Part shown: one piece after another, positions 14,524 through 36,029 of the stretch
Layout: each line of letters opens with the position of its first letter
How positions within the stretch are numbered: position 1 is the stretch's first letter
Source of the DNA: Bacteroidota bacterium
GTDB lineage: Bacteria > Bacteroidota > Bacteroidia > Bacteroidales > JAIFNL01
Direction of reading: 5' to 3'
NCBI GenBank assembly: GCA_020047755.1
Contig: JAIFNL010000053.1
Span: 1-36,029 of the forward strand
Length of the DNA: 36,029 nt
The notes under the pieces: model-generated
Told to the model about the DNA's origin: nothing
Database searches by the model: none
Seen by the model: only the letters and a program-made list of their open reading frames with translations
Made by a program: the position numbers and the translations under genes

Positions 14524-14793
14524 TTACCAGCTGGCTTTTTTTACACCAGGTATTAAGCCTTTTGAGGCCATTTCTCTAAACGATATTCTACTGATTCCGA
14601 ATTGACGCATGTATCCTCTTGGTCTGCCGGTAAGTTTGCATCTGTTGTGCATTCTTATAGGATTTGAGTTTTTAGGAAGTTTTTGTAATCCTTCTGAATC
14701 GTTTTCTGCTTTTAATTTTGCTCTTTTTTCGGCGTATTTTTCAACAAGTTGTTTACGCTTTACTTCACGAGCTTTCATTGATTCTTTAGCCAT
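14524..14793 (-). CDS. rpsN: 30S ribosomal protein S14 (zinc-independent type)
   Basis: [40 protein letters not shown]; no CxxC pairs. Confidence 0.97.
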
Positions 14794-14796
14794 TTC

Positions 14797-15677: not shown

Positions 15678-15693
15678 CGAAATAATCTTTAAA

Positions 15694-16059
15694 TTATAAT
15701 ACTTCAGGGGCGAGAGATACAATTTTCATGTATTTGTCTCTCAATTCGCGTGCAACAGGACCAAAGATACGTGTTCCTCTTATTTCGTCTGCTGCATTAA
15801 GTAATACTACTGCGTTGTCGTCAAAGCTAATGTACGAACCGTCTTGTCTTCTTACTTGCTTTTTAGTTCTCACAACAACAGCTTTTGTAACAGAGCCTTT
15901 TTTTACTCCGCTCGAAGGAATTACACTTTTAACAGCTACAACGATTTTATCGCCCACTGAGGCATATCTTCTTTTAGTACCTCCAAGTACTCTAATGCAA
16001 AGTACTTCTTTGGCACCACTGTTATCAGCTACTGCTAATCTCGATTCTTGTTGTATCAT
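15694..16059 (-). CDS. rplN: 50S ribosomal protein L14
   Basis: [44 protein letters not shown]. Confidence 0.98.
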
Positions 16060-16061
16060 TT

Positions 16062-16325
16062 TTATTTAGCCCTTTCTATAATTTCAACTAATCTCCAATT
16101 CTTCCTTTTGCTTAAAGGTCGAGTTTCCATTATTTTCACGGTGTCGCCCTCGTTACAAGTATTTTGTTCGTCGTGAGCAATAAATTTAGTTGTTTTTTTC
16201 ACAAATTTACCATACTTTGGGTGCTTTTCTTTTCTATGCACAGCCACAGTAATCGATTTTTGCATTTTTGTGCTCACAACTACACCAATACGCTCTTTTC
16301 TCAAGTTTCTAGTTGTATCTTCCAT
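16062..16325 (-). CDS. rpsQ: 30S ribosomal protein S17
   Basis: [48 protein letters not shown]. Confidence 0.97.
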
Positions 16326-16329
16326 AACT

Positions 16330-16527
16330 CTATTCTCCTTTCATGTTTCTTTTGTGCAATTCTGTCATCAATCTTGCTATTAAACGACGGGCTTCCTTAA
16401 TTTTGTTGGGATTGTCTAAGGGAGTTATTGCATGGTTTAACTTCAACTTGCTAAGATGCGCTTTTGTATCTTCAATTTTATCAAACAAATCGTTTGTTGA
16501 AAGTTCTACTATTTCTGAATTCTTCAT
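16330..16527 (-). CDS. rpmC: 50S ribosomal protein L29
   Basis: [60 protein letters not shown]. Confidence 0.96.
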
Positions 16528-16537
16528 CGTTTATTTT

Positions 16538-16960
16538 TTAAGATTCAATGTAATCACGTCTTACAATAAATTTACAAGCAATCGGCAATTTTTGGGCTGC
16601 CAATCTTAATGCTTCTTTGGCAATTTCGAACGGAACACCTTCTGCTTCGAATAAAATTCGTCCGGGAGTAACTCTAGCTACGAATAATTCGGGAGCACCT
16701 TTACCTTTACCCATCCTTACTTCAGCCGGCTTTTTTGTAATCGGCTTATCGGGAAATATACGAATCCAAATTTGTCCTTCACGTTTCATGTGGCGTGTAA
16801 CTGCCTGACGAGCAGCCTCTATTTGCCTACCTGTGATCCAAGTTTGCTCAAGAGCCTTAATTCCGAAAGAACCGAAAGCCAATTGGTTTCCTCTTCCAGC
16901 ATTGCCCTTCATTTTGCCTTTTTGCTGCTTCCTGAATTTAGTCTTTTTCGGTTGTAACAT
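16538..16960 (-). CDS. rplP: 50S ribosomal protein L16
   Basis: [88 protein letters not shown]. Confidence 0.98.
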
Positions 16961-16982
16961 TTTAATTAGTTTTTTTTATTGC

Positions 16983-17699
16983 CTATTTTCTTTTTCTTCT
17001 TGGACCTTTGTTGCTAGGTACACTAGCTTTTTGTTGTTGTTTTTTCAACCCAATGTTTGGCGAAAGGTCACGTTTGCCATAAACCTCACCTTTGCAAATC
17101 CAAACTTTGATACCAATAAGTCCAACTTTTGTAAGTGCTTCGGCAATCGAATAATCAATATCAGCTCTAAGCGTATGTAATGGAGTACGCCCTTCTTTGA
17201 ACATTTCCGAACGCGCCATTTCAGCTCCATTTAAACGTCCCGAAATAAGTACTTTCATACCTTCGGCACCCATTCTCATGGTAGAAGCAATGGCAGTTCT
17301 GATAGCTCTTTTGTAAGCAATTTTGCCTTCAACTTGTCGAGCAATATTATTTGCCACAATTACAGCGTCAAGCTCAGGTCTCTTAACTTCAAAGATGTTA
17401 ATTTGAACGTCCTTTTCTGTGATTGTTTTAAGTTCTTCTTTTAATTTATCTACTTCTTGACCGCCTTTACCTATAATGATACCTGGTCTGGCAGTATGAA
17501 CAGTAACAGTTATTAATTTTAAAGTTCTTTCGATAATAATTCTAGAGATACTTGCTTTAGCTAAACGAGTATTGAGATATTCTCTAATTTTAGTATCTTC
17601 AACTAATTTGTCGGCATATTTGTTTCCGCCGTACCAATTTGAATCCCATCCTCTGATGATTCCTAGCCTGTTACTGATTGGATTAGTTTTTTGTCCCAT
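16983..17699 (-). CDS. rpsC: 30S ribosomal protein S3
   Basis: [25 protein letters not shown]...KH-like [18 protein letters not shown]. Confidence 0.98.
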
Positions 17700-17701
17700 T
17701 A

Positions 17702-18145
17702 TTACTTGGTTTGATTGTCTTGTGTATCTTCTTTATCTTCTCCAATTGAGTTAACGGCACTTCCTAAGATAAGAGTAACATGGTTAGATCTTTTTCTTAT
17801 TCTATGCGCTCTCCCTTGGGGTGCAGGTCTGAGTCTTTTCAGAACACGTGCAGAGTCAACAAAAATTTCTTTTACAAACAAACTTGCATTTTCCATTCTT
17901 GTTCCGTCGTTTTTAGTTTCCCAGTTGGCAATTGCTGACTTTAATAATTTTTCAAGTCTGTTTGATGCTTCCTTGGAACTAAATTTCAATATATCAAGTG
18001 CACTATTTACATCAACTCCTCTTATTTGGTCTGCAACTAATCTCATTTTTCTGGGTGATGTGGGGCAATTTCTTAAAACAGCAAAATATTTATTTTTTCT
18101 TTCTTCACTGGCTTGCTCCGCTCTTAGTCTTTTTTTTGAACCCAT
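17702..18145 (-). CDS. rplV: 50S ribosomal protein L22
   Basis: [51 protein letters not shown]...[24 protein letters not shown]. Confidence 0.97.
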
Positions 18146-18170
18146 TTTGTTTAAATCTAATTAACGGTTA

Positions 18171-18440
18171 TTATTTATTTTTCTTTCCGCCATGGCCTCT
18201 AAACGTGCGAGTTGGAGCGAATTCTCCAAATTTATGCCCTACCATATTTTCAGTTACATATACGGGAATGAATTTATTTCCATTATGTACTGCTATGGTA
18301 TGCCCAACAAAGTCAGGAGATATTACGGAAGCTCTTGCCCATGTTTTAATTACAGATTTCTTGCCTGAGTCATTCATAGCAAGAACTTTTTTCTCTAGCT
18401 TATAATTAATAAAAGGGCCTTTTTTCAACGATCTACTCAT
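18171..18440 (-). CDS. rpsS: 30S ribosomal protein S19
   Basis: [19 protein letters not shown]...[39 protein letters not shown]. Confidence 0.98.
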
Positions 18441-18460
18441 TTTTCCTTTATTTTATCAGG

Positions 18461-19285
18461 TTATTTTTTTCTATTTTCAATGATGTATCTGCTAGAATAT
18501 TTATTAGGTCTTCTGGTTTTGTAACCTTTAGCTAATAAACCTTTGCGTGAACGTGGGTGTCCGCCTGATGATTTTCCTTCACCACCGCCCATTGGGTGAT
18601 CTACAGGGTTCATGGCAACACCTCTTACGTGAGGACGTTTTCCTTGCCAACGTACTCTACCGGCTTTTCCTGATTTTTCGAGGTTGTGCTCAGAGTTTGA
18701 TACTACTCCCATGGTTGCTTTACAAGTAACCAATACCATACGGGTTTCGCCTGAAGGCAGTTTTAAAATTGCGTATTTACCTTCTCTTGATGTAAGCTGA
18801 GCGTAAGTTCCGGCACTTCTTGCCATTACTGCGCCTTTGTTGGGTTTTAGTTCGATATTGTGAACCACACTACCAAGGGGTACATCGGATAAATACAACG
18901 AGTTTCCTACTTCTGGTGCAACACCTTTTCCTGAAATTACAGTTTGCCCTACTTGAAGTCCGTTGGGCGCGATGATATATCTTTTTTCACCATCGGCATA
19001 AAATAATAGTGCAATGCGAGCAGTTCTATTAGGGTCATATTCTATTGTTTTCACAACAGCAGGAATCCCTTCTTTGTCTCTCTTAAAGTCAATTACTCTA
19101 TATTTCCTTTTGTGTCCACCACCTATTTGACGCATGGTCATTCTACCTGTGTAGTTTCTTCCACCTGATTTTGATGTTCCGGTGGTTAACGACTTTTCAG
19201 GCACGTTTGTGGTAATTTCCGCAAAAGTACTTGCTATTTTATGTCTTTGACCGGGTGTTGTCGGTTTAATTTTTCGTACAGCCAT
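18461..19285 (-). CDS. rplB: 50S ribosomal protein L2
   Basis: [27 protein letters not shown]...[43 protein letters not shown]. Confidence 0.98.
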
Positions 19286-19291
19286 TTTTTC

Positions 19292-19582
19292 TTAAATATT
19301 GCTATAAAAATCAATTGTCTCTCCCTTAGCTACTGTTATAATAGCTTTTTTAAATGCCTTCGTTTTTCCAGAAATAACTCCAGCTTTAGTAAATCTCGAT
19401 TTACTTTTACCTGCGTAACGAACTGTATTAACAGAATTTACTGTAACACCGTACATTTCTTCTACAGCCGAAGCTATTTGAAGTTTGTTTGCATCGTCAT
19501 TTACAATAAATCCGTAGCGATTAAGTTTTTCACCTAATTTAGTCATTTTTTCAGTTACGATGGGTTTTATTAAAATATCCAT
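19292..19582 (-). CDS. rplW: 50S ribosomal protein L23
   Basis: DILIKPIVTEKMTKLGEKLNRYGFIVNDDANKLQIASAVEEMYGVTVNSVNTVRYAGK. Confidence 0.97.
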   Translation of the reverse strand: MDILIKPIVTEKMTKLGEKLNRYGFIVNDDANKLQIASAVEEMYGVTVNSVNTVRYAGKSKSRFTKAGVISGKTKAFKKAIITVAKGETIDFYSNI

Positions 19583-19589
19583 GTCAAAA

Positions 19590-20225
19590 TTACTGTTTTT
19601 GGTTATATCTTTCTTCTAAAACTTTAACCGCGCTTTCAAACAACACTAAATTTTTAGCGTACAAAATACTGTATGTATTTAAGTCTGAAGCTGTTATTAC
19701 GTTCACGTCTTTCAAATTACGCGATGACAAATATATGTTTTTATTTTGGTCTGATAAAACAAAAAGTGATTTTTTATTTAATAAATTTAAATTAGAAGAA
19801 ATTCCTAATAAATCTTTTGTTTTTGGTTTATCAAAACTAAAATCTTCAACAACAAATATTGTGCTTTCTTTTACTTTGTATGAAAGAGCAGATAAGCGAG
19901 CCAAACTTTTCAATTTCTTGTTTAGTTTGAAGCTATAATCTCTCGGACGTGGTCCAAAAACCCGTCCACCGCCACGCAAAAGTGGAGATTTTGCGCTACC
20001 CATCCTTGCAGTTCCAGTACCTTTTTGACGTTTTACTTTTTTAGTACTTCTGTGTATCTCAGCGCGTTCTTTCGATTTGTGTGTACCTTGACGCTGATTA
20101 GCCAAATACTGTTTTACGTCTAAATAAATAGCATGGTCATTGGGTTCTATACCGAAAATAGTTTCTGCAAGATTGATTTTTCTTCCGGTTTCTTTTCCTT
20201 GTATGTTTAAAACATTTAATTCCAT
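19590..20225 (-). CDS. rplD: 50S ribosomal protein L4
   Basis: [68 protein letters not shown]. Confidence 0.97.
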
Positions 20226-20842
20226 TACTTCTCAATAATTAAATATGAACCTTTTGCACCGGGTACTGATCCTTTTAGTACCAATAAATTTTTGTCCGAA
20301 ATAATTTTCATTACACGAAGGTTGAGAACTTTTACGCGTTCGTTACCGGTTCTTCCAGCCATTCTCATTCCTTTGAAAACTCTCGATGGATGAGACGATG
20401 CACCAAGTGATCCGGGAGCACGCAATCTGTTGTGCTGACCGTGTGTGGCATCATTTACACCACTAAATCCATGACGTTTTACAACGCCTTGGAATCCTTT
20501 TCCTTTAGATGTTCCGATTACATCTAACCATTGGTTGCTACTGAAATAGTTTACATCAATAACATCACCTAATTTCCAGTTTTTCTCTTCGCCTACGAAT
20601 TCTATAACTTTCCTTTTGGGTGTTGTACCAGCTTTTTTGAAATGTCCTAGCTCGGGTTTTGTAGTATGTTTCTCTTTTTTGTCTTCAAAAGATAGTTGAA
20701 TGGCGTTGTAGCCTTCTTTTTCTTTCGATTTGATTTGAGTTACTACGCAAGGTCCTACTTCAATTACGGTACATGGAACATTTTTTCCGTTTTCGTCGAA
20801 AACAGAAGTCATTCCGATTTTTTTTCCTATTAGTCCTGGCAT
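20225..20842 (-). CDS. rplC: 50S ribosomal protein L3
   Basis: [52 protein letters not shown]...[17 protein letters not shown]. Confidence 0.98.
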
Positions 20843-20900
20843 TTTTTGTTAATTTTTGTTGGCGGTTACGAACAATCATTCGCAACACAACGTTTACTTA

Positions 20901-21206
20901 TCAAACTTTAATCTCTACTTCAACACCGCTTGGCAATTCTAATTTCATTAGAGCGTCGATTGTTTTTGGTGTAGTGCTGTATATGTCAATCAATCTTTTG
21001 TATGACGAAAGCTCAAACTGCTCGCGTGATTTTTTGTTTACAAAAGTTGAGCGCAATACGGTGAAAATTCTTTTGTGTGTAGGCAAAGGAATTGGACCGC
21101 TTACTACTGCACCAGCTGCTTTCACAGTCTTAACAATCTTCTCGGCTGAATTATCTACCAAGTTATGGTCGTAAGATTTAAGTTTTATTCTTATCTTTTG
21201 ACTCAT
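20901..21206 (-). CDS. rpsJ: 30S ribosomal protein S10
   Basis: [75 protein letters not shown]. Confidence 0.98.
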
Positions 21207-21245
21207 TTAATAAAACTTTAAATAGTGAATTTAGTTAAACTATAA

Positions 21246-21274
21246 ATTCCGGACTCTAAAAGAAGAGCCGGAAT
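21246..21274 (-). promoter_or_regulatory. strong hairpin in the fusA-rpsJ spacer
   Basis: ATTCCGG-a-CTCT-aaaaga-AGAG-CCGGAAT; 11 paired positions with a single bulged base, in otherwise AT-rich spacer. Confidence 0.55.
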
Positions 21275-21286
21275 ATTATTTTATTT

Positions 21287-23386
21287 TTATTTACCTTTTA
21301 TATTATCGATAACTTCTTTGGCTAAGTTAGCTGGAAGTTGTGCATAATGCAAGAATTCCATGCTCGAAGTGGCTCTACCCTGCGAAAGAGTTCGCAATAC
21401 GGTTACGTATCCGAATGTTTCCGATAGAGGTACTTTGGCTTTGATTACGCGTGCACCTGCTTTTGATTCCATGCCTTCAACCTGTCCTCTGCGCTTGTTC
21501 AAATCGCCGATTACGTCGCCCATATAGTCTTCTGGAGTTACTATCTCCATTTTCATAATTGGCTCTAATAATACAGGGTTTGCTTTTGCAGCAGCAGCTT
21601 TGTAAGCCATTTTGGCAGCAAGCTCAAACGAAAGTTGGTCAGAGTCCACTGCGTGGAATGCTCCGTCGGTAAGAACTACTTTCAACGAATCTATTTCGTA
21701 TCCTGCCAAAGGTCCGTTTTTCATGGCTGCTTTGAAACCTTTTTCAACGGAAGGGATAAATTCTTTAGGAATGTTACCGCCTTTCACTGCGTTTTCAAAT
21801 TGTAAGCCTTCTTTTGCGTCATCTACTGGCGAAAGAATTACGTTGATTTTAGCATACTTACCTCTACCACCCGATTGTTTTTTGAAAACTTCTTCGTGGT
21901 GTACGGTTCCAGTAATAGCTTCTTTGTAAGTTACTTGAGGTCTTCCTTGGTTGCATTCTACTTTAAACTCGCGGTTCAATCTATCTACAATGATTTCGAG
22001 GTGCAACTCGCCCATACCTCTGATGATAGTTTGTCCAGTGTCTTCGTCAGTATGTACTGAGAATGTTGGATCTTCTTCAGAAAGTTTGCTAAGTGCTAAA
22101 CCAAGTTTATCTATGTCTTTTTGAGTTTTTGGTTCAATAGCAATACCAATAACAGGTTCGGGGAAAGTCATTGACTCTAACAAAATAGGATGTTTTTCAT
22201 CGCATAATGTGTCGCCTGTTTTAATATCTTTAAAGCCCACAACAGCGGCAATGTCGCCCGCACCTACTTCGTCGATAGCGTTTTGCTTGTTTGCGTGCAT
22301 TTGATATATTTTTGATATTCTAGTGGTTTTGCCGTTGCGTGCATTGAAAAGTTGCATACCGCCGGTCAAAACGCCTGAATAAACTCTAATGAAAGCTAGT
22401 CTTCCTACGAAAGGGTCGGTAGCTATTTTGAATGCTAAAGCAGCAAGAGGCTGACTTTCTAATGGTTTACGGGTAATTATTATCGATTCGTCGTCTGGGT
22501 CTGTTCCTTCTATCTCTTCAATATCGAGAGGTGAAGGTAAGAATGCAGCTACAGCATCGAGTAATCGTTGTACTCCTTTATTTTTGAAAGCAGAACCGCA
22601 AAGAACAGGTACGATAGTTTGAGCAATGGTTGCTTTTCTGATGGCATCTTTTATTTCTTCTACAGAAATAGAGTCGCTATCTTCAAAGAATTTTTCCATT
22701 AACTCTTCGTTTTGTTCTGCTACGCTTTCAATCAATTTTTCGCGCCATTCATATACAGTTTCTTCAAGGTCTGCAGGAATTGGAACGTATTCGTATCTGG
22801 TTCCTTTTTGAGCATCGTCAATCCAAACTATCGCTTTGTTTTCGATTAAGTCCACTACACCTTTAAAATCAGCTTCTGAACCTATTGGCACTTGCAATGG
22901 TATAGCATTTGCGCCAAGACGTTCTTGAATTTGGCTTACTACGCCAAAGAAGTCGGCTCCGGTTCTATCCATTTTGTTTACAAATGCAATACGCGGAACT
23001 TTATATTTAGTGGCTTGTCTCCATACAGTTTCGGATTGAGGCTCTACACCTCCTACTGCGCAAAACAAAGCAACAGCACCGTCAAGAATACGTAAAGAGC
23101 GTTCTACTTCCACGGTAAAATCAACGTGCCCGGGAGTATCAATGATGTTTACTTTGTATTCTTTTTCATTGTAGTTCCAGAATGTGGTAGTTGCTGCAGA
23201 AGTAATTGTGATTCCTCTTTCTTGCTCTTGCACCATCCAGTCCATAGTGGCTGCTCCATCGTGTACTTCGCCTATTTTGTGAGTGATACCTGTGTAAAAC
23301 AAAACACGTTCACTAACGGTAGTTTTACCGGCATCAATGTGAGCCATTATACCTATATTTCTTGTATATTTTAAGTCTCTTGCCAT
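21287..23386 (-). CDS. fusA: elongation factor G
   Basis: [77 protein letters not shown]. Confidence 0.98.
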
Positions 23387-24672: not shown

Positions 24673-25365
24673 TTACAATTCGTATTTTTGAATCATGCGC
24701 TTGATGTTGTTTATATCTCCAAAAATAACAAGTATATCATCTTGGCAAAGTTTAGTGGTGGCGGTAGCTATTCCATTTATTTCCTGCACTGTTCGTTGCA
24801 TATTGAGTACGGTGTTTATTTTTTTTGTTTTGATAATGGTAAGCACAAGTAAATTGTATTTGTTGCTCAATTTGAGTTCTTCCAGTTTTTTGCCAACAAA
24901 TTCGTGTGGTACTTTTACTTCTACTATATTGTAGCTACCTGCTAATTCAAAAGCTTCTATTATTCCTCTAATATTTAGCTTTTTAGCAAGTTTTCTAGCG
25001 GCATCTTCTTCGGGGTGTACTATTTCGTCTATTCCCATGGCTTCAAGCACCATGTGCTCTACGGGAGTGATGGCGCGGCTAATAATACGCTTGGCGTGAA
25101 GCTGTTTCATTACGGCGGTAGCCAAAATAGAGGCTCCTTCTTCTTCGCCAATGGCTACAATTACTACATCTACTTCTTTTATGGGAAGCGAACCAGCAGC
25201 AATTACATCGGTGGCATCGAGGCTTACGGTAAAGGTGATTTTATCTTTCAAAAAATCTACTTTTTGTAAGCGTTTATCCACTCCTATTACTTCGTGCCCC
25301 ATGTCTGTTAGACTTATTGCTAATGCTGCGCCAAAATTTCCTAATCCTACTACTATAAATTTCAT
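24673..25365 (-). CDS. Trk/Ktr K+ uptake regulatory subunit (RCK: TrkA-N + TrkA-C)
   Basis: MKFIVVGLGNFGAALAISLTDMGHEVIGVDKR...DATD; C-terminal TrkA_C-like VKVPHEFVGKKLEELKL; adjacent to the transporter subunit. Confidence 0.92.
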   Translation of the reverse strand: MKFIVVGLGNFGAALAISLTDMGHEVIGVDKRLQKVDFLKDKITFTVSLDATDVIAAGSLPIKEVDVVIVAIGEEEGASILATAVMKQLHAKRIISRAITPVEHMVLEAMGIDEIVHPEEDAARKLAKKLNIRGIIEAFELAGSYNIVEVKVPHEFVGKKLEELKLSNKYNLLVLTIIKTKKINTVLNMQRTVQEINGIATATTKLCQDDILVIFGDINNIKRMIQKYEL

Positions 25366-25440
25366 TTCATTTTATGTTAAAATTTTTTTCTTCAAAACAA
25401 TATAAAAAACAAGGGTTTCTATTTTTGCTAAATAGCCTAA

Positions 25441-27207
25441 TTACATTACAATTATCTCTTCCTTAGGGTATTGATAGTTTAATGTTCGTACTTGCGTAAA
25501 AAGCCCAATAAGCACCGAAAGCATTCCAACTCTACCCAAAAACATAATGGCTATAATCAGCATTTTGCTTGCTAATGACAATGTAAAGGTAATTCCCATG
25601 CTTAAACCCACTGTACTATAAGCCGATACAACTTCAAATACGATTGCTAATAAGGGTTTGTCTTTTTCAAAAAAAGTCATAAGCAAAGTGCCTATGCCAA
25701 TAACGACCAACGACAAAAATAGCAAAGCATAAGCTCTTCTTACCGAAATGTTTGATATTTTACGTCGCATAAATTCAATGCGGTCTTTGCCTTTCGATAG
25801 GTTGAATACATTCAATACTGCAATAAAAAAAGTACTGGTTTTGATACCTCCTCCCGTAGAACCCGGTGAAGCTCCAATCCACATCAGTAAAATGATTATC
25901 AACAAGGTAGAAGTTTGTAATTCGCCAAAATTAAAAGCATTAAAGCCGGCTGTTCTGGGCGTTACCGAAGCAAAAAAAGCGGTAACTAATTTACCAAAAC
26001 CAGTATGTTCGCTCAATATGTAATTGTATTCAAATATATAAACGATTACGGTTCCCAAAACAATTAAAACAGTGGTAGTCAATACTACAATTATTGTATT
26101 AATATTAATAACCCAAGGCAAATGATGAAAATTATCTTTCAAAAAAAATTGTCGTATTTTGTTGGTTAAATAATGTTTCAAATATTTATATAAATTGATG
26201 AAAACACTAAAACCCAAACCTCCCAAAACAAGCAATGAAGCTATAATTAATTGAATTGCATAATTAAATTTCAGTTGCTCATGGGCTAATCCCATCGACA
26301 GGGTGCTAAAACCTGCATTGCAAAAAGCAGACACGCTATGAAAAACAGAAAAAAAGAATCGTTCGCTAAGCCTCATATCCATCGTGTTATCTACGCTTAC
26401 AAACAAAAGCAAAGCTCCTATAAATTCGATAAGCAAAGTAGAAAGCACTATTTTAATTACCGTTTTAAATACCTCGTTGTAACGCTCCGAGCCCACAAAA
26501 TCCTGCATTACTATTTGATTGCGAAAGCTTGTTCTTTTTATGAAGAAAATACCCAGAAAACTAGTAAAGGTCATTACGCCCAAGCCGCCCACCTGAATAA
26601 GCATCATAATAATAATCTGCCCAAATTGTGTGAAAACATACTGTGTATCTACAACTGCCAAACCTGTTACGCAAACAGCACTGGTAGAGGTAAATAAGGC
26701 ATCAATAAAGCTAATTCCGTTTACGGTAGATTTTGGCAACATCAAAAGCAATGTTCCCAACAAAATAATTCCAAAAAAGGTAAGTATAAATAAAATACGG
26801 GGGTTTATCGAAAGCCAATCGTAATTAAAAGTACGCTTGGATATTTCAACAAAAAACACAAGACTTATGAGCGAATACGAAGATAAATTTAGTAGTAAAT
26901 CTCGTTCGTTATTTACCCTAAGCATCAACACAAAGAATAAAATAAGCAAAATCGAAATAAATGCAAAAAGAGCGTTCCATGTTCGCTCTGGTTTTGTTAA
27001 TTTTGTTCGGAAGGTTAAAAAAAAGCGCAAAGTATAACTACTTAAAATTGAGAAAAGTATTCCAAAATGAAATATCTTTAATACATGAAATACATTAGAA
27101 GGGAAATTGAACCCCAACAAAATAAGTATTAATAGAAAACCCAAGCTACTCAAATAAAACACAGTAGTAGGCAATGCCTCTAAAACTTTTTCTGGAAATC
27201 TGGTCAT
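25441..27207 (-). CDS. KtrB/TrkH-family potassium transporter with N-terminal extension
   Basis: Four P-loops with filter Gly: TSTSAVCVTGLAV, SVSAFCNAGFSTL, SVTPRTAGFNAF, VVSAYSTVGLSMG; about 130-150 aa of hydrophobic sequence before the core. Confidence 0.92.
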   Translation of the reverse strand: MTRFPEKVLEALPTTVFYLSSLGFLLILILLGFNFPSNVFHVLKIFHFGILFSILSSYTLRFFLTFRTKLTKPERTWNALFAFISILLILFFVLMLRVNNERDLLLNLSSYSLISLVFFVEISKRTFNYDWLSINPRILFILTFFGIILLGTLLLMLPKSTVNGISFIDALFTSTSAVCVTGLAVVDTQYVFTQFGQIIIMMLIQVGGLGVMTFTSFLGIFFIKRTSFRNQIVMQDFVGSERYNEVFKTVIKIVLSTLLIEFIGALLLFVSVDNTMDMRLSERFFFSVFHSVSAFCNAGFSTLSMGLAHEQLKFNYAIQLIIASLLVLGGLGFSVFINLYKYLKHYLTNKIRQFFLKDNFHHLPWVININTIIVVLTTTVLIVLGTVIVYIFEYNYILSEHTGFGKLVTAFFASVTPRTAGFNAFNFGELQTSTLLIIILLMWIGASPGSTGGGIKTSTFFIAVLNVFNLSKGKDRIEFMRRKISNISVRRAYALLFLSLVVIGIGTLLMTFFEKDKPLLAIVFEVVSAYSTVGLSMGITFTLSLASKMLIIAIMFLGRVGMLSVLIGLFTQVRTLNYQYPKEEIIVM

Positions 27208-27493
27208 TTTATGATTTTTTTATACAAAAATAAAACGCGCAAAGTTAAAGAGAAAAAAAAGAAAAAAAAATTATACAATGTTAATTTTTTGTATCTTTTA
27301 GTGCAATAGAACTTTATTTGCCTAACTTAAAAACGACCGAAATTCTAAAAAAAAGCTAAAACTATGCAATTTTTTCAAAGTCTAATAAAAAAATGTTAAA
27401 TTGTTATTTTATCAATAAAAAATGGAAAATATTGGATTTCAACTCTGTTTTTTTTTAAAGTTATCTCTTAGCAAGTGATTTTGATAAAATAAG

Positions 27494-27523
27494 AAAACCG
27501 CACTTTTTTTAAAGAGCGGTTTT
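27494..27523. terminator. hairpin AAAACCGC-a-CTTT...AAAG-a-GCGGTTTT between SPFH and KtrB genes
   Basis: Arms 27494-27501 / 27516-27523 plus inner CTTT/AAAG pairing; flanked by A and T tracts. Confidence 0.7.
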
Positions 27524-27623
27524 TATATGAAATGAAATCTAAGCCGTGAATCAAAATTAATTATATCTAATTTCGCCAAGCACTTAAAAATAAAATAACA
27601 CGAGTGCTTATTTTATTAATCAA

Positions 27624-28757
27624 TTAAAACGAAGGCGGTGGTGGAGGCGGAGGCATCATCGAAAATAGCGCCATTACTTCAGGCACTTGTTCGGCTTGCA
27701 ACCAACCTTGCATTCCGGCTTTCCACACGTAAGTTTGCTTTGTTAATTGATTTTGAGCAATTAAGTTTTTCAACGTAGCCATATCAAAAGGACCTTGTTG
27801 CTGTCCGTTGATAGAAACGTGGTATTGAGGTCCCATTGGCGGTGGTGGTGGCGCAGCATTGTTGAATTGCTGATTGTTTTGGTTCAAATTTTGATTTTGC
27901 ATCTGTTGTTGTTGCATGTTCATCATTTGTTGAGCCATTGCCATGCCCATCATGCCTTCCATTCCGCCGCCTCCGCCTTGGTTGTTGGCAGCATCGCGCA
28001 TAGCATCGGCTTGTTGCATTTGAGCATATTTGTTCATATCGCCCAAAGCTCCCATGCTCGAACGCTTGTCGATTGCTTTTTCTACTTCTGGCGGTAGGCT
28101 GATATTATTGATTAAAAATTTTAAAATATCGATACCGTAACTGCTTGGAAATTCTTCTTTTAAGCGAGCTTCGCAAAAGTTGGAAAGCTCGTTGTAGCTG
28201 GCAGCTAAATCTAAAACCGGAATTTTACTTTCGCCCACAGCATCGGTAAAACGGGTTATTACTAAGCTTTTTAGTTGCGAGTTAATTTCGTCGGTTGTAA
28301 AGCTTTTGTTGGTTCCTACTACTTCTTGTAAGAATTTTACAGGGTCAGAAACTTTAATCGAAAAATTGCCAAATGCTCTGATGCGAACCATTCCAAAATC
28401 GGGGTCGCGCATCATTATTGGGTTGGGCGTTCCCCATTTTTGGTCGAGAAATTGCTTGGTAGCTATAAAATAAACTTCTGCCTTGAAAGGAGAATCGAAG
28501 CCGTATTTCCAGCCTTTGAGGGTAGAGAGAATGGGCAAGTTTTGTGTGGCAAGCGTGTAAGTGCCAGGTCCAAAAACATCGGCTACTTTGCCTTCGTTAA
28601 TAAAAACGGCTGCTTGCGACTCTCTTACAATTAGTTTTGCTCCATTTTTAATTTCATTGTCGTGTCTTTCAAACCGAAAGACCATAGTGTCTTGCGTATT
28701 GTCTAGCCATTCTATAATGTCTATCAATTCGCTTTTTATTCTATCAAAAAAACCCAT
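27624..28757 (-). CDS. SPFH-domain (YdjI-like) protein with poly-proline linkers and C-terminal GYF_2-like domain
   Basis: SPFH-like N-terminus (GAKLIVRESQAAVFINEGKVADVFGPGTYTL...FGNFSIKVSDPVKFLQEVVG), QMMNMQQQQMQNQNLNQNNQQ linker, PPPPPMGPQYHVSINGQQQGPFDMATLKNLIAQNQLTKQTYVWKAGMQGWLQAEQVPEV (GYF_2), ending PPPPPPPSF. Confidence 0.88.
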   Translation of the reverse strand: MGFFDRIKSELIDIIEWLDNTQDTMVFRFERHDNEIKNGAKLIVRESQAAVFINEGKVADVFGPGTYTLATQNLPILSTLKGWKYGFDSPFKAEVYFIATKQFLDQKWGTPNPIMMRDPDFGMVRIRAFGNFSIKVSDPVKFLQEVVGTNKSFTTDEINSQLKSLVITRFTDAVGESKIPVLDLAASYNELSNFCEARLKEEFPSSYGIDILKFLINNISLPPEVEKAIDKRSSMGALGDMNKYAQMQQADAMRDAANNQGGGGGMEGMMGMAMAQQMMNMQQQQMQNQNLNQNNQQFNNAAPPPPPMGPQYHVSINGQQQGPFDMATLKNLIAQNQLTKQTYVWKAGMQGWLQAEQVPEVMALFSMMPPPPPPPSF

Positions 28758-28940: not shown

Positions 28941-31202
28941 CTAACAGGGTTTTATACCCAATACAACGATGTCATCTACTTGTTTTAAACGTCCTTTCCA
29001 GTTTTCATAAGCTTCTAGGATAAGTTCTTTTTGTTTGGTTAAAGGTTCGTTCTGTATTTCGAGCAATAATTTTTTGAATCGCTGCGATTTGAATTTATCG
29101 TTGTATTCGCCTCCAAATTGATCCACAATTCCGTCCGAAAACAGGTAAAGCGTATCGTTTTGTTGCAAATCGAAGTTGTGATTGGTAAAGGGTTGTTCTT
29201 TGATGAAAGCACCAATAGGCTGTCTATCTGGTTTTAAATGAATCAGTTCGTGCGTATTTTCGGCTGGTTGGCTGCATTTACGAACAATGAAAAGTGGGTT
29301 GTTGGCACCCGAAAATTGCAAAATTTTATTTTCTACATCTATTACACAAAGGGCGATATCCATTCCGTCGCTCAGTTTGTGCTCACTGCCAGCTTGGTTG
29401 AGAGCATTTTTTACGTGGTCGCGCAATTGGTCTAAAACTTGATTTGCTTGGGTTGTTTCCGAGTTTCCTACTATTTCGTTTAAGAAAGCCATTCCCATCA
29501 TGCTTACAAAAGCACCCGGAACGCCGTGTCCGGTGCTGTCGGCAGCTATTATTACTACAAATTTTCCTATTTTGCGAAGCCAATAAAAATCGCCGCTAAC
29601 AATGTCGCGTGGCAAATAAATGATGAAATGTTCTACAAAATTGGCTTCAAACGCTTTTTCGGAAGGCAACATAGCCGATTGTATGCGCTTGGCAGAATTG
29701 ATGCTGTCCGTTATGTTTTGGTTTACTTTTTCTATTTCTCGGTTTTGCTCTACTACTTTATCGTTGGTTTCGCGAAGCATTTCCACAATAGCTTGTATTT
29801 CTTCTTTTTGCTGGTTGATTTCTTCGTTACTTTCTATAAGTAAATTGTTTTTGTCCACCAAATTTTGAGCGTATTCGTTGAGTTGGTCATTTTTGAGTTG
29901 TATTTCTTTGGTTCTTTCTTTTATTTTGCCTTCTAATTCTCTGTTTACTTGGTCTTTGAGTTCTTCATTTTTTTTAAGCTGCTCTATCAAATCTTCTTGC
30001 ATTTTCACTTTTGCCTTTTCTATTAGGCTTATTTTGAAACCCAAACCTAGCGAAAAAAACAAGATTTGCCCAACAACGCCGGCATTCATCAAGTGTGTAG
30101 GGTTTATACTAAAATCTATTTTACCTATAATAAACACCAAACTCGAAACGGTGCCAACTACCAGAAAACCAGTACCAATCATAAAAAACAAAGCCAACGA
30201 GCTTTTGTGCTTTAGTAGATAAATGATAAAAGCAAGCCCAATAAGTAAAACCGCAAAATTTAGCAAATTGCTTACATTAATCGACAAAGGCACATTGAAA
30301 TTTATCAGCAAATCGAAGGTTAAATAAATGGTTGCTATGATATTAGCCCAAACAATAGCAAGTAAGGTTTTGTCCCATTTGGGCATATCTATTTTGGTGT
30401 TCAAAAAAAGCCTCAAAAATTGAAAATATGAAGCAGTAGCTAAGCCCGTTGCAATTATAAACACAAAGGGGTCAGCCTTAGGAAATTCGGGGGTAATGTA
30501 CTCGATGAAAAGCCCACGTGTAGAAATGAGATTAAAAATCATTCCCAATACATAAAGCGAATAATAAATATATACTAAATCTCTGTTATATACATAAATA
30601 AGTAAATTGTAGAACAACATAATCCAGAGTATGCCTACAATAAACCCAAAAACCAAATTGCGAGAAGCTACATCGTTGTAAAAATCAAGTTCTTCTACCA
30701 AAGTTACATCAAATGCTGGGGAATAGCCCGAAATATTTTGTATGCGCAAATAAATTTCATACTCTTCATGGGCTTTGAGATGTATTTTGAACTTACTTCC
30801 TATTTCCGTTTTTACATCTTTTTTGTTTTTTTGCAAAAAGAAACCACTTTCAGCATATTTTATCTGATTATTGTGATTGAAAACGTACATTTGAGCAAAG
30901 TCTGAATGTCTTTTCTTTCCAATTATAAGTATTTTGTCTATTGAATATTCAGTTTTGTTTCTAACAGTCAATTTTGCCCAATAGACTCTATCTTTTCGCA
31001 ATTTTGTAGTTTCTCGGTATTCCTTAAAATCGGTATTTTTAAAAAATACAATGTCAGTTATTTGTAAAATTCCGGTTGTGTCTTCATAGTATAATACGGC
31101 ATCGCTCAACTTTATTTTTTCTTGGGTTGAGCCATTTGCTAGTGTTACATTGCTTTTTAATAACAGACTAAATAGGAAAAATAGAAGCGTTCTAAATTTC
31201 AT
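28941..31202 (-). CDS. 7TMR-DISM sensor with coiled coil and SpoIIE/PP2C-type serine phosphatase domain
   Basis: Signal peptide; DISMED2-like extracellular region; multi-TM; KERTKEIQLKNDQLNEYAQNLVDKNNLL coiled coil; SGDFYWLRKIGKFVVIIAADSTGHGVPGAFVSMMGMAFLNEIV ... LFSDGIVDQFGGEYNDKF. Confidence 0.92.
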   Translation of the reverse strand: MKFRTLLFFLFSLLLKSNVTLANGSTQEKIKLSDAVLYYEDTTGILQITDIVFFKNTDFKEYRETTKLRKDRVYWAKLTVRNKTEYSIDKILIIGKKRHSDFAQMYVFNHNNQIKYAESGFFLQKNKKDVKTEIGSKFKIHLKAHEEYEIYLRIQNISGYSPAFDVTLVEELDFYNDVASRNLVFGFIVGILWIMLFYNLLIYVYNRDLVYIYYSLYVLGMIFNLISTRGLFIEYITPEFPKADPFVFIIATGLATASYFQFLRLFLNTKIDMPKWDKTLLAIVWANIIATIYLTFDLLINFNVPLSINVSNLLNFAVLLIGLAFIIYLLKHKSSLALFFMIGTGFLVVGTVSSLVFIIGKIDFSINPTHLMNAGVVGQILFFSLGLGFKISLIEKAKVKMQEDLIEQLKKNEELKDQVNRELEGKIKERTKEIQLKNDQLNEYAQNLVDKNNLLIESNEEINQQKEEIQAIVEMLRETNDKVVEQNREIEKVNQNITDSINSAKRIQSAMLPSEKAFEANFVEHFIIYLPRDIVSGDFYWLRKIGKFVVIIAADSTGHGVPGAFVSMMGMAFLNEIVGNSETTQANQVLDQLRDHVKNALNQAGSEHKLSDGMDIALCVIDVENKILQFSGANNPLFIVRKCSQPAENTHELIHLKPDRQPIGAFIKEQPFTNHNFDLQQNDTLYLFSDGIVDQFGGEYNDKFKSQRFKKLLLEIQNEPLTKQKELILEAYENWKGRLKQVDDIVVLGIKPC

Positions 31203-31365
31203 TTTGTTTTGAATTTTTCTTTTACAACTTTGTTTTTTTTACCTAAATAAAACACAAAGATATTCTTTTTTTATTTACTTTTAAATTTTTTTACACTTTT
31301 TTTAGTTGTTTTATTCCTATGTCATAGCAAAATAAGTTTACTCTATTAAAAATGAATAAAAAAAT

Positions 31366-31396
31366 TTGTTTCTTTGAAAATCATTTCATAATTTTG
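31366..31396 (+). promoter_or_regulatory. predicted Bacteroidetes-type promoter of the arsenic/thiol cluster
   Basis: TTG (31366-31368), 20-nt spacer, TAATTTTG (31389-31396), about 37 nt before the first ATG. Confidence 0.55.
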
Positions 31397-31402
31397 TGAA
31401 AT
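31383..31402. promoter_or_regulatory. candidate ArsR-type operator
   Basis: Dyad ATTTCA-taattttg-TGAAAT overlapping the predicted -7 element. Confidence 0.4.
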
Positions 31403-31432: not shown

Positions 31433-31681
31433 ATGAAAATCGATTTAAAAATACTTGGAACAGGCTGTGCAAAATGCAAAACGCTCGAAAAAGTAACCAA
31501 AGAAGTAGTTGCCGAAAATAATTTTGATGCCCAAGTGCAAAAAGTAGAAGACATTGTGGAAATAATGGGGTACGGAATTATGACTACGCCCGCCTTGGTT
31601 ATCAACGAAAAGGTTGCTTTTAGCGGACGAATACCCTCAAAAACAGAGATTAAAAGCTTTATAGAAAACGCTACATTATGA
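31433..31681 (+). CDS. small thioredoxin-fold redox-active disulfide protein (CAKC)
   Basis: MKIDLKILGTGCAKCKTLEKVTKEVVAENNFDAQVQKVEDIVEIMGYGIMTTPALVINEKVAFSGRIPS. Confidence 0.9.
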   Translation: MKIDLKILGTGCAKCKTLEKVTKEVVAENNFDAQVQKVEDIVEIMGYGIMTTPALVINEKVAFSGRIPSKTEIKSFIENATL

Positions 31682-31980
31682 GCAAAGCCGAAGAATATTC
31701 CGAAAAACAAATTCAACTGGCAAAGTTTGCAAAAGCAATGAGCCATCCGGCTAGAGTTTTGATTTTAGAAAAACTCTCGAAAATGAACGCTTGTTGTTAC
31801 AGTGGCGATTTGATTAATGAACTGCCTATCAGTCGTTCGGGGCTTTCGTTGCACTTAAAAGAGCTAAAACTAGCCGGCTTAATTCAAGGTACAACCGAGC
31901 CGCCTTACATCAAATATTGTTTGAACAAAGAAAACTGGAAAACGGCAGTGGTGCTGTTTAACGAGCTATTTGCCGAATAA
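31678..31980 (+). CDS. ArsR/SmtB-family transcriptional regulator
   Basis: FAKAMSHPARVLILEKLSKMNACCYSGDLINELPISRSGLSLHLKELKLAGLIQG; overlaps the upstream ORF (ATGA). Confidence 0.92.
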   Translation: MSKAEEYSEKQIQLAKFAKAMSHPARVLILEKLSKMNACCYSGDLINELPISRSGLSLHLKELKLAGLIQGTTEPPYIKYCLNKENWKTAVVLFNELFAE

Positions 31981-32052
31981 TTTTTTTAAAATTTCATTTC
32001 ACTAGTTAATAAACTATTGAAATATTTATAACAAAACAAACTATTAAATTGT

Positions 32053-32469
32053 ATGAAAAAAATAATTAGTTTTTTATCAATCGTGCTTTTAAGTGCGCTT
32101 TTTATGTTGCCAATTCAGGCGCAAACTTCAAAAAAAACCTCGGGCACAAAACTAGAAATTTATTATTTCCATTCCACCAACCGCTGCGTAACTTGCAATG
32201 CAGTAGAAAGTAATGCAAAAGCCTTATTGCAAGAGAGTTTCAAGTCGCAAGCAGACAAAGGCAACATCAAATTTGCGTCCATCAATATCGACGACAAAGC
32301 AAACAAAGCTTTGGTGGAAAAATACCAAATCAGCTATTCTACTTTGCTTATAATCAAATCAAATGGCAAGAAAACCGATTTTACAAATACGGCATTTCAA
32401 TACGCAAAAAACAACCCAACAAAATACAAAGAATTGCTAAAAGCGGAAATTAATAAAAACCTTAAATAG
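32053..32469 (+). CDS. exported thioredoxin-like protein, ArsF-like (nitrophenyl compound nitroreductase subunit ArsF family)
   Basis: Signal peptide; YYFHSTNRCVTCNAVESNAKALLQESF...INIDDKANKALVEKYQISYSTLLII; followed directly by an ArsG-like permease. Confidence 0.75.
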   Translation: MKKIISFLSIVLLSALFMLPIQAQTSKKTSGTKLEIYYFHSTNRCVTCNAVESNAKALLQESFKSQADKGNIKFASINIDDKANKALVEKYQISYSTLLIIKSNGKKTDFTNTAFQYAKNNPTKYKELLKAEINKNLK

Positions 32470-32471
32470 CT

Positions 32472-33135
32472 ATGGAATTTCTTCAAAGTTTGTTGGACAA
32501 TACGCAAACTCCCATACTTTACGCTTTTATTTTGGGACTAATGACCGCCATTAGTCCTTGCCCTTTGGCTACGAATATTACGGCTATTGCCTACATTAGC
32601 AAGGACATAGAAAACAAACGCAAAATTTTTGCCAACGGATTGATTTATACTTTGGGAAGAGCCCTTAGCTACACCCTTTTGGGAGTAGTTTTGTTTTTTG
32701 GGGCGAGCAAATTTGAAGTCTCAAAACTTTTTACTGTTTATGCTCGATGTGTTCAAAATTAATTTCCCTTCGTTTGGCAAACTGACCGAAAAAATGCAAC
32801 GCAATTCAAACAAAGGCAGTCGTTTACATGCCCTTTTGTTGGGAATTGTGTTTGCTTTGGCTTTTTGTCCTTACAGCGGTGTTTTATTTTTCGGAATGTT
32901 AATTCCTATGACAATTGCAAGTTCGTCAGGTTTGTATTTGCCTGTTATATTTGCACTTGCAACGGGTTTGCCCGTAATTATAATTGCCTATTTGTTGGCT
33001 TTTAGCATTTCGAGTATTGGCAATTTTTACAAAAAGATGCAAACTTTCCAAAAATGGTTTAATCGCCTTGTGTCGGTTATTTTTATTTTAGTAGGTTTGT
33101 ATTATGTGTATATTTTTTATTTAAAAGGTTTATGA
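32472..33135 (+). pseudogene. ArsG-like / CcdA-DsbD-like permease, disrupted by internal deletion and frameshift
   Basis: ORF 32472-32762 (ILGLMTAISPCPLATNITAIAYIS...RALSYTLLGVVLFFGASKFEVSKLF) is continued in another frame (GLFMLDVFKINFPSFGKL...LGIVFALAFCPYSGVLFFGMLIPMTI). Confidence 0.78.
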
Positions 33136-33500
33136 AATCAATTAAAATTAGTCTAATCCTTTTCATTTTAGCAATTACAACAGCAAGTTTTGCACAAAAT
33201 GAAACAAAAGAAATAAAGTACAAAGTAACTTTTGTAGAATTGGGTTCGGTAAAATGTATTCCGTGCCAACAAATGCAACCGATACTAAAATCGATAGAAC
33301 AAAAATATCCTGCGCAAGTAAAAGTAGTATTTTACGATGTTTGGACAGCTGAAGGCAAAGAGTCAGCGGCTGAGTATAAAATAAATTTAATTCCTACTCA
33401 GGTCTTTTTAGACGAAAACGGAAAAGAATTTTTTCGGCATGAAGGTTTTTTTGAAGAAGCCGAAATTATTAAAGTTTTACAAACAAAAGGCGTTAACTAA
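33132..33500 (+). CDS. exported thioredoxin family protein (CIPC active site)
   Basis: Signal peptide MKSIKISLILFILAITTASFAQ; FVELGSVKCIPCQQMQPILKSIEQKYPAQVKVVFYDV...INLIPTQVFLDENGKEFFRHEGF. Confidence 0.92.
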   Translation: MKSIKISLILFILAITTASFAQNETKEIKYKVTFVELGSVKCIPCQQMQPILKSIEQKYPAQVKVVFYDVWTAEGKESAAEYKINLIPTQVFLDENGKEFFRHEGFFEEAEIIKVLQTKGVN

Positions 33501-33521
33501 AACTCTCAAAATCTAAAAAAA

Positions 33522-34421
33522 ATGGAACACAACCATAGCCATGCGCCCAAAATTAGCAATATCAACCGAGCGTTTCTTGTTGGTATTGCCATAAATTTGC
33601 TTTACGTTGTAATTGAATTTGGTGCAGGCTTTTATTATAATTCGCTTTCGCTAATTTCCGATGCAGGACATAATTTGAGCGATGTTGCAGCTTTAGCCTT
33701 GGCATTGCTTGCTTTTAGGCTTGCCAAAATAAAAGCAAACGAAAAGTTTACTTACGGTTATCGTAAATCTACCATTTTAGTTTCACTCATTAACTCGGTG
33801 GTTTTATTTGTTGCAATAGGCGCAATTTTGTGGGAAAGTATCCAAAGAATAAACAATCCGGTCGAAATTCAAGGTGTTTCAATTTCGATAGTGGCGGCAA
33901 TAGGAATTGTAATCAATGCTGTTTCTGCCTTTTTATTTTTCAAAGAAAAAGAGAACGATTTGAATATCAAGGGTGCTTATTTGCACCTTATGGCTGATGC
34001 TGCTGTTTCGTTGGGAGTAGTAATTTCGGGCGTTCTTATTTCGTGGTTGCACATTTATTGGCTCGATATGGTTACGAGTTTAATTATCGTTGCTGTAATT
34101 TTTTATTCTACTTGGAACTTGTTCAAAGACAGTCTTTCGCTTACACTCGATGGCGTTCCGAAAGGGATAGACCTACAAAAAGTAATTTCGGAAATTAAAG
34201 AAGTAGAAGGCGTTATTGATGTTCATCATTTGCACGTTTGGGCAATAAGCACATCGCAAAACGCTATGACAGCGCACATTATCATTCCTTCAAATACGCC
34301 AATAGAACAATTACCTATTTTGAAGAAAAACATAAAACACGAATTGGAACATGTAAATATTCAACATGCAACACTCGAATTTGAAACGGATAATGAAATT
34401 TGTGATAATTCAGAAATATAA
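33522..34421 (+). CDS. cation diffusion facilitator (CzcD-like Zn/Cd/Co efflux)
   Basis: His-rich N-terminus MEHNHSH; SLISDAGHNLSDVAALALALLAFRLA (TM2 H-D) and HLMADAAVSLGVVISG (TM5 H-D). Confidence 0.95.
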   Translation: MEHNHSHAPKISNINRAFLVGIAINLLYVVIEFGAGFYYNSLSLISDAGHNLSDVAALALALLAFRLAKIKANEKFTYGYRKSTILVSLINSVVLFVAIGAILWESIQRINNPVEIQGVSISIVAAIGIVINAVSAFLFFKEKENDLNIKGAYLHLMADAAVSLGVVISGVLISWLHIYWLDMVTSLIIVAVIFYSTWNLFKDSLSLTLDGVPKGIDLQKVISEIKEVEGVIDVHHLHVWAISTSQNAMTAHIIIPSNTPIEQLPILKKNIKHELEHVNIQHATLEFETDNEICDNSEI

Positions 34422-34458
34422 TTAACGAAGTATTGTATTAATTAATTAATAAAAAAAA

Positions 34459-34896
34459 ATGAAAAAAATACTTGTATTGTTTATTGCAATTTTAAATTTT
34501 GCATCGTGTGCAACGGCACAAGATGCTGTGTTGGAACAATACCTGCTTACTTACGACTATCAGGCTCGCAAAGACATGAGAGTTGATAGCGAAGAACTGG
34601 TACAATTGATTAAAACAAAAAAAGCTATCTTGCTCGATATTCGCTTCAAAGAAGAATATCAGTCGTGGAATATGCCTTTTGCTGTGAGCATTCCTTTGCC
34701 CGATTTGCCCAACAATTTGAGCAAACTCGACAAAAACAAGCTCATCATTACCGCTTGTCCGCACAACGACAGGGCAATTATAGCCATGCTTTATCTAAAA
34801 ACAAAAGGCTACAAAGTGAAATATTTGAGCGACGGACTTTTAACCTTAGCCGATTATTTGCGCGGCAACAATGCTCTCAATTTTATTACAAACTAA
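34459..34896 (+). CDS. rhodanese-like domain lipoprotein
   Basis: Lipobox-like MKKILVLFIAILNFASC; KKAILLDIRFKEEYQSWNMPFAVSIPLPDLPNNLSKLDKNKLIITACPHNDRAIIAMLYLKTKGYKVKYLSDGL. Confidence 0.85.
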   Translation: MKKILVLFIAILNFASCATAQDAVLEQYLLTYDYQARKDMRVDSEELVQLIKTKKAILLDIRFKEEYQSWNMPFAVSIPLPDLPNNLSKLDKNKLIITACPHNDRAIIAMLYLKTKGYKVKYLSDGLLTLADYLRGNNALNFITN

Positions 34897-34913
34897 AAAT
34901 AAACAGATAGAAA

Positions 34914-35333
34914 ATGAAAATACTCATTCTTTGCACCGGCAACAGTTGCCGCAGCCAAATGGCACATGGTTTTTTGCAAACGTTTGATAAAAAATTAACC
35001 GTTTGCTCGGCAGGAACTGAAGCCTCCGGCAAGTTGAACCCAACAGCCGTAAAAGTAATGTCGGAAATAGGCATCGACATCAGCCACCATACTTCCGACT
35101 CGGTCGAAAAGTATTTGAACGAAACTTGGGATTATGTAATTACCGTTTGTGGCGGCGCAAACGAAAGTTGTCCGGCATTTGTGGGACAAGTAACGCATCG
35201 CCTTCACATTGGCTTCGACGACCCCTCGCACGCCACCGGAACGCCCGAATTTATAATGAGCGAGTTTTATCGTGTGCGCGATGAAATTAAAGAGGCATTT
35301 TATAAGCTGTATATCGAGCAAATAATAAAGTAG
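34914..35333 (+). CDS. arsC: arsenate reductase, LMW-PTPase fold, thioredoxin-coupled type
   Basis: MKILILCTGNSCRSQMAHGFLQTF (CX5R loop plus extra Cys) and VITVCGGANESCPAFVGQVTHRLHIGFDDPSHATG (redox Cys pair). Confidence 0.94.
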   Translation: MKILILCTGNSCRSQMAHGFLQTFDKKLTVCSAGTEASGKLNPTAVKVMSEIGIDISHHTSDSVEKYLNETWDYVITVCGGANESCPAFVGQVTHRLHIGFDDPSHATGTPEFIMSEFYRVRDEIKEAFYKLYIEQIIK

Positions 35334-35340
35334 AATAGAG

Positions 35341-35652
35341 ATGGAAAAACCAATAAGCATCGAAAAAAAAATAATAGCAATTTTAAATTCCAAAAATCCG
35401 GATAGAATTGAAATTATTAAAATTTTACAATCCGATTTAAAAACAAAAATTCAAGACGGAGTAGTTTTGTATTATTGTAGTTGTGGCTATCCCTTAGGCA
35501 TTCAAATTGAAGAGGTTAATCATAAAAACGAATTAACCTACCGATACGAATTATTGTACGATATTTTGAATTACGAAGCGGATATTGATAAATTTTGCAC
35601 TTTTACGTATTGTCCTAAGTGCAATAAAATGATAGAAGAAAAGCAATATTAA
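35341..35652 (+). CDS. small zinc-ribbon-like hypothetical protein
   Basis: Two Cys pairs, YYCSCGYPLG and FTYCPKCNKM; immediately follows arsC. Confidence 0.7.
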   Translation: MEKPISIEKKIIAILNSKNPDRIEIIKILQSDLKTKIQDGVVLYYCSCGYPLGIQIEEVNHKNELTYRYELLYDILNYEADIDKFCTFTYCPKCNKMIEEKQY

Positions 35653-35715
35653 GCACCAGTGCTAAGTAAATGATTGAAATTAGTTTATAGTAATCAACAT
35701 AAAGTTTTCTATAAC

Positions 35716-35843
35716 TAGCTACGGCATTTATGCCGTAGTAAATAAACAAATGTTTATCTGGGCTTTAGCCCAAAAGCTTAGAGTAAGGGCTAAAGCCCAA
35801 ATCTGTTGCTGATTTTTTCATGGCGGCATAAATGCCGTTGCTA
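35716..35843. repeat. nested palindromic REP/MITE-like repeat
   Basis: Outer arms TAGCTACGGCATTTATGCCG (35716-35735) / CGGCATAAATGCCGTTGCTA (about 35824-35843), each internally palindromic; inner arms TGGGCTTTAGCCC (35759-35771) / GGGCTAAAGCCCA (35787-35799). Confidence 0.75.
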
Positions 35844-35872
35844 ATGATTTAGAGTTTTTAAACAAACCTAAA

Positions 35873-36029
35873 TAGTGTTTGAAAGAAAACTCATCATTTT
35901 TTGAAAATTTAAAAAAAACAAAAACCGTTCGACCGACTTGTCGGTCTGTCGGTTAGGCAGTTAGGAAATCATCGGACAGACCGGACAAGCCGGTCGAACC
36001 GATTTTGCTTAGTTTTCTTTCAAACACTA
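35873..36029. repeat. about 157-bp foldback element with perfect 19-bp terminal inverted repeats, ending at the last base of the window
   Basis: TAGTGTTTGAAAGAAAACT (35873-35891) / AGTTTTCTTTCAAACACTA (36011-36029); inner imperfect arms AAACCGTTCGACCGACTTGTCGGTCTGTCGGTT / ATCGGACAGACCGGACAAGCCGGTCGAACCGATTTT. Confidence 0.8.

Follow-up and report, generated by a model that had tools for sequence, protein, structure and literature searches.

Gene content of the locus

The window analysed here, a stretch of 36,029 nucleotides, is the entire contig C56 of a 4.64-Mb assembly in 313 contigs. Positions 31433-35652 are filled by a run of plus-strand open reading frames. Nine genes had been counted between these coordinates in the first-pass annotation; the coordinates stand, but arsG is split in two frames, which leaves eight intact open reading frames and a broken arsG. 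Gene identities were assigned with NCBIfam and Pfam profiles, judged against their curated cut-offs, and the matches bear out the identities ArsE, ArsF and ArsG (TIGR00412, NF040494 and, in two pieces, NF040495). The arsenic context proposed for the cluster was likewise correct.

The run opens with arsE (31433-31681), encoding a small cytosolic thioredoxin-fold protein with a CAKC motif (TIGR00412, 114.1 bits against a cut-off of 62). The following gene, arsR (31678-31980), encodes an ArsR/SmtB repressor that is over the PF01022 cut-off and scores 47 bits in NF033788, below the 55-bit cut-off of that model. Its cysteines form a CC pair and a later single residue (ACCYSGDL and KYC); the second cysteine of the pair and the later one are each present in 83 of 84 homologues. 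An exported thioredoxin-fold protein with the motif RCVTC is encoded by arsF (32053-32469; NF040494, 111.8 bits, cut-off 60), which precedes the two pieces of arsG. Next come an exported thioredoxin (33132-33500; CIPC, PF00085), whose start overlaps the arsG stop, and a ZitB-like CDF divalent-cation exporter (33522-34421; TIGR01297, 259 bits, cut-off 82) that probably transports Zn or Cd and is 81% identical to the CDF protein in the ars island of a congener. They are followed by an exported rhodanese (34459-34896; PF00581) with a cysteine in its active loop (CPHNDRA), a probable lipoprotein as judged by a lipobox-like FASC in its sequence, and by arsC (34914-35333), encoding a thioredoxin-coupled arsenate reductase. 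The earlier thioredoxin, CDF, rhodanese and ArsC calls agree with these family matches, with the reservation that ArsC reaches 136.8 bits in the pI258-type model TIGR02691, below its cut-off of 174. Features of the pI258 type are nonetheless present, namely the CX5R P-loop (CTGNSCR) and the C82/C89 pair (CGGANESC), and all three catalytic cysteines align with those of the best solved relative (1jl3, E 6e-31).

The last gene (35341-35652) encodes a small putative Zn-ribbon protein (CSC, CPKC) with no Pfam or NCBIfam match. It adjoins arsC both in the window and in the congener G002, where a 41% identical homologue lies between ArsC and ACR3 (L112:2861-3175). Its distribution is restricted to four of 149 genomes, its own included, and we regard it as a candidate minor accessory gene of ars loci.

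Directly upstream of the island and divergent from it is a fusion of a 7TMR-DISM receptor with a SpoIIE-type phosphatase (28941-31202, minus strand; PF07695, PF07696, PF07228). Further away on the minus strand lie a TrkH/TrkA potassium uptake pair together with an SPFH/Band-7 protein that has a GYF_2 domain (24673-28757), and a long block of ribosomal-protein-sized genes (6483-23386), in which L2 (18461-19285) and EF-G (21287-23386) were confirmed. Given these core translation genes beside it, the island is chromosomal. A DDE transposase (PF01609) is encoded on the plus strand at 4952-6238.

A broken arsG and a truncated island

ArsG had been described as a single permease gene. Instead, the NF040495 profile is matched by two separate pieces, each in its own frame: a 5' fragment (32472-32762, plus strand; profile positions 2-84) that contains SPCPLATN and TM1-TM2 before the frame is lost, and a 3' fragment (32740-33135, plus strand; profile positions 97-224) that contains FCPYSG and TM4-TM6. 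The mechanical start of the second frame is a TTG at 32698, and its first ATG is at 32740. The pieces score 119 and 165 bits, neither reaching the 200-bit cut-off, while the intact ArsG of relatives scores 298-319 bits. At the junction (32727-32737, plus strand) 47 bp are lost out of frame, and the distance between two landmarks in the gene is 262 nt in the window versus 309 nt at every other locus measured except L078, where it is 321 nt with the frame still kept. The frame break is unique to the window; every other measurable locus keeps the arsG frame. The deletion takes out approximately residues 87-103 of intact ArsG, which form the third transmembrane helix (TM3) in an AlphaFold2 model of an intact relative and include the near-invariant G91, E92, G96, P97, L99 and G103.

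Both arsG pieces are 81-87% identical to L004 and L005 (81-84% for the 3' fragment), with dN of about 0.08-0.12 and dS of about 0.9-1.4. The resulting dN/dS of about 0.07-0.11 indicates purifying constraint on both halves, and since both are still conserved, the deletion is either recent or an error of assembly. No second intact arsG was found in the genome assembly; a match on C214 was rejected as a further copy, being weak (22 bits) and set in a 692-aa frame. The locus is thus a degraded ArsEFG operon, an incomplete member of its type in which arsG is disrupted, and, barring an error of assembly at the deletion, the ArsG step should be dead in this genome.

That the break is an artefact of assembly or a variant in the minority, and that the cell's own arsG is intact and the system works, is a possibility we take seriously while doubting it. 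The assembly is fragmented and metagenome-style, with its 313 contigs, and the constraint on both halves is what an intact gene would leave. Against this, reading the sequence by eye revealed no repeat near the junction that explains a clean 47-bp collapse, and the assembly lacks a second ArsG copy. It is very improbable that the pieces are made separately and act as a split permease: a restart at the ATG at 32740, overlapping the stop at 32760, would permit re-initiation, but TM3 and its six near-invariant residues are gone and the break is absent from all other loci.

The island is also cut short. The contig ends inside a MITE/REP-like repeat (35873-36029) of about 150 bp with terminal inverted repeats of 18-19 bp (TAGTGTTTGAAAGAAAAC). 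This terminal repeat has 100 matches genome-wide and none for a reversed control, so that breaks of the assembly at the repeat are to be expected. Nested REP-like palindromes (ACGGCAT...ATGCCGT; GGGCTTTAGCCC...GGGCTAAAGCCC) occupy 35711-35848, in an intergenic region shared with the repeat.

There is no arsenite permease in the window. Across the genome assembly, ArsB was not found and no ACR3 was over the cut-off (a sub-threshold match lies on C147). The assembly does contain two PF03773 permeases. One of them, on contig C234, is of the ArsP type, and its gene is flanked on both sides by copies of the repeat family in which the window ends (L111:6875-7022 and the contig end). Joining the end of the window to C234 is unproven, as the repeat copies differ at several positions despite belonging to the same family; by synteny, we infer that C234 follows the window. 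In the congener G002, the order of genes is CDF, porin, FmdE, Trx, ArsC, Zn-ribbon, ACR3, 23S-IVP protein and ArsP. Because the congener carries this series, we read the window as part of a modular ars island that has been truncated, and the gene order in G002 probably indicates what lay past the end of the contig.

Conserved core, variable cargo and a shared operator

ArsG is encoded in 61 of the 99 genomes searched around the window, its own genome included. A scan of species genomes yielded 80 loci, and neighbourhoods were counted over 91 loci, with the window included wherever it has the gene in question. ArsF adjoins ArsG in 84 of the 91; 69 loci have both ArsR and ArsE close by as well, and in 77 a PF03773 (ArsP_1) permease lies in the vicinity of ArsG. 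Other neighbours vary: ArsC (28 loci), exported thioredoxin (20, all with CxxC, window included), ACR3 (19), rhodanese (17), ArsM (10) and CDF (5). The four core proteins, ArsE, ArsR, ArsF and ArsG, fall into known families, and the core is found repeatedly among Bacteroidota; its recurrence in about 90 loci excludes a chance run of genes. The exact nine-gene order, which was expected to be conserved in relatives, is absent elsewhere in the set of loci. We therefore rejected the nine genes as a single conserved unit and kept the core block, with the Trx, CDF, rhodanese, ArsC and Zn-ribbon genes as variable cargo. A search of plasmids returned one ArsG, 54% identical, in a replicon of Prevotella nigrescens; the other plasmid matches were distant and mostly annotated as TauE/SafE.

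Nor can the system as a whole be called under-described, as was first suggested. ArsEFG already has a name and a published study (Chen, Zhang and Rosen, 2019, doi 10.1021/acs.est.9b01187, as cited in PMC10190100 and PMC9144182), and NCBI models exist for all three families. The window shares with the published system the three families in the order E, (R), F, G, with ArsE and ArsF over curated cut-offs. It differs in the split of arsG by deletion, in the ArsR between E and F, and in the additional Trx, CDF, rhodanese, ArsC and Zn-ribbon genes; synthetic aromatic substrates would be hypothetical for the window. With the typical Bacteroidota ars operon (ArsR-ArsC-ACR3-ArsP) it has ArsR and ArsC in common, and G002 has the series Trx-ArsC-Zn-ribbon-ACR3-ArsP, whereas in the assembly of the window no ACR3 was found and an ArsP-type permease exists only on C234. 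In sum, the operon belongs to an arsenic-resistance type that is widespread and readily recognised, and the locus itself is ordinary.

The features of an ArsR-controlled operon are present, namely the arsR gene and a palindromic operator (putative binding site) at the promoter. Upstream of arsE, at 31365-31402 on the plus strand, TTTG (31365-31368) is followed after 20 nt by TAATTTTG (31389-31396), which sits within the palindrome ATTTCA...TGAAAT (31383-31402); the dyad itself reads TTCA-TAATTTTG-TGAA (31385-31400). A dyad of the form TTCN-N8-NGAA with complementary N (class TTC[G/A]-N8-[C/T]GAA) occurs in 46 of 72 distinct regions, searched over 100 nt upstream of arsE or arsR, versus 0.79 expected from dinucleotide shuffles. 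This pattern was picked after the output of a first one (ATTTC-N6-16-GAAAT), which proved too narrow (10 of 71) and was replaced, and the count of 46 is consequently not blind; the excess over expectation is nonetheless very large. The dyad usually takes a form close to TTCG-TAnnTTTG-CGAA, and the operator core of L004 is identical to that of the window. We take the spacer to be the Bacteroidota -7 box (TAnnTTTG), with TTTG 20 nt upstream, and a bound repressor would in that case cover the promoter. ArsR may have a second site at 31996-32023, between the arsR and arsF genes; it is degenerate in the window, and L004 and L005 have a second dyad TTCA-N8-TGAA ahead of arsF. Binding by ArsR and an arsenic inducer would be in keeping with this arrangement.

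Arsenic pumping or electron transfer

ArsE has CxxC in 49 of 49 sequences and an N-terminal hydrophobic extension in only one of 48; its nearest solved structure is MTH895 (1ilo). In ArsF the CxxC is present in 88 of 88 and an N-terminal hydrophobic (export) segment in 87 of 89, and its model is confidently of the thioredoxin type (pLDDT 87.9). Two cysteines are invariant in ArsG (87/87). The first-pass annotation was right to see a resemblance of ArsG to CcdA: for the model of an intact ArsG, the sole high-probability PDB match by Foldseek is the electron transporter CcdA (5vkv, probability 1.00), although the structural match is weak (E 0.02, TM 0.46, model pLDDT 74). The best PDB sequence match of the ArsG profile is again 5vkv (E 0.096). 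The first ArsG cysteine aligns with that of CcdA, and the second (FCPYSG) lies two residues before its CcdA counterpart (TPCIG). As in DsbD/CcdA/ScsB, there would be a cytosolic thioredoxin-fold donor, a membrane protein of six helices with two invariant cysteines and an exported thioredoxin-fold acceptor; intact ArsG may also share the CcdA/DsbD layout of one redox cysteine in each inverted repeat. ArsEFG differs from these systems in being encoded by separate genes in an ars operon and in the displaced second cysteine, and the similarity is only distant.

Our preferred reading, to which we assign a probability of roughly 0.6, is that of an ArsR-repressed, chromosomal ArsEFG-type arsenic-resistance island, truncated by the contig and with a broken arsG, whose intact type would operate as a relay, with efflux by a separate permease. 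In the intact type, a trivalent arsenical would bind the ArsR cysteines and free the operator that overlaps the promoter, and ArsC would reduce arsenate using thioredoxin. Electrons might pass from cytosolic ArsE to the CcdA-like membrane protein ArsG and on to exported ArsF (and the exported thioredoxin), which would reduce periplasmic thiols or arsenicals. Efflux would fall to the separate ArsP-type permease, and in relatives also to ACR3. The CDF exporter and the rhodanese could be cargo for divalent metals and for sulfane sulfur, respectively.

An electron relay to periplasmic thiols, already suggested at first pass, is plausible and is strengthened by the present comparison. The cysteines, the compartments of the proteins and the CcdA match fit better with a relay that runs from ArsE to ArsF and leaves efflux to ArsP or ACR3 than with a pump. 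More specifically, and at slightly less than even odds, we propose that ArsE-ArsG-ArsF, instead of exporting synthetic aromatic arsenicals, is a dedicated split DsbD under ArsR control, a trans-membrane thiol-electron relay that feeds reducing power to the periplasm during arsenic stress of natural origin, the pumping itself being left to ArsP or ACR3. The relay is the best explanation at hand, yet the low TM score and model confidence of the CcdA match and the offset of the second cysteine count against it, as do the listing of ArsG as an efflux transporter in PMC9144182 and the failure to find either ACR3 or ArsB in the assembly of this genome.

Alternatively, the proteins could act as published, with ArsE and ArsF reducing aromatic nitroarsenicals (roxarsone, for example) and with ArsG exporting the aminoaromatic product. 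Nitroarsenical reduction with efflux by ArsG is the published view as cited in PMC10190100 and PMC9144182, the latter placing ArsG among efflux transporters and ArsE and ArsF under organoarsenical resistance with reference to Chen, Zhang and Rosen (2019), and the NCBIfam names of NF040494 and NF040495 agree with it. We consider it rather unlikely here, given the electron-transporter resemblance of ArsG, the separate permease that accompanies it in most loci, and its occurrence in many genomes that were presumably never exposed to synthetic drugs. With ArsG in about 60% of the sampled genomes, synthetic aromatic arsenicals are unlikely to be the main substrate. Similarity to DsbD and CcdA, along with the exported thioredoxin and rhodanese, could also point to a general module for periplasmic thiol redox or cytochrome c maturation (CcdA/TlpA type) with arsenic genes as mere neighbours. 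This is distinctly improbable in view of the ArsR inside the operon with its conserved operator and of the recurrent ArsC, ACR3 and ArsM neighbours.

If ArsE-ArsG-ArsF is indeed a split DsbD, the annotation "ArsG efflux permease" would be wrong for many genes. Comparison of the loci yields testable points on a family whose function has been little studied: the invariant placement of the cysteines, ArsE inside and ArsF outside, the frequent separate permease, the occurrence in about 60% of the sampled genomes, and the conserved operator over the promoter box. The main interest thus lies at the level of the family, in whether it pumps arsenic or transfers electrons across the membrane.
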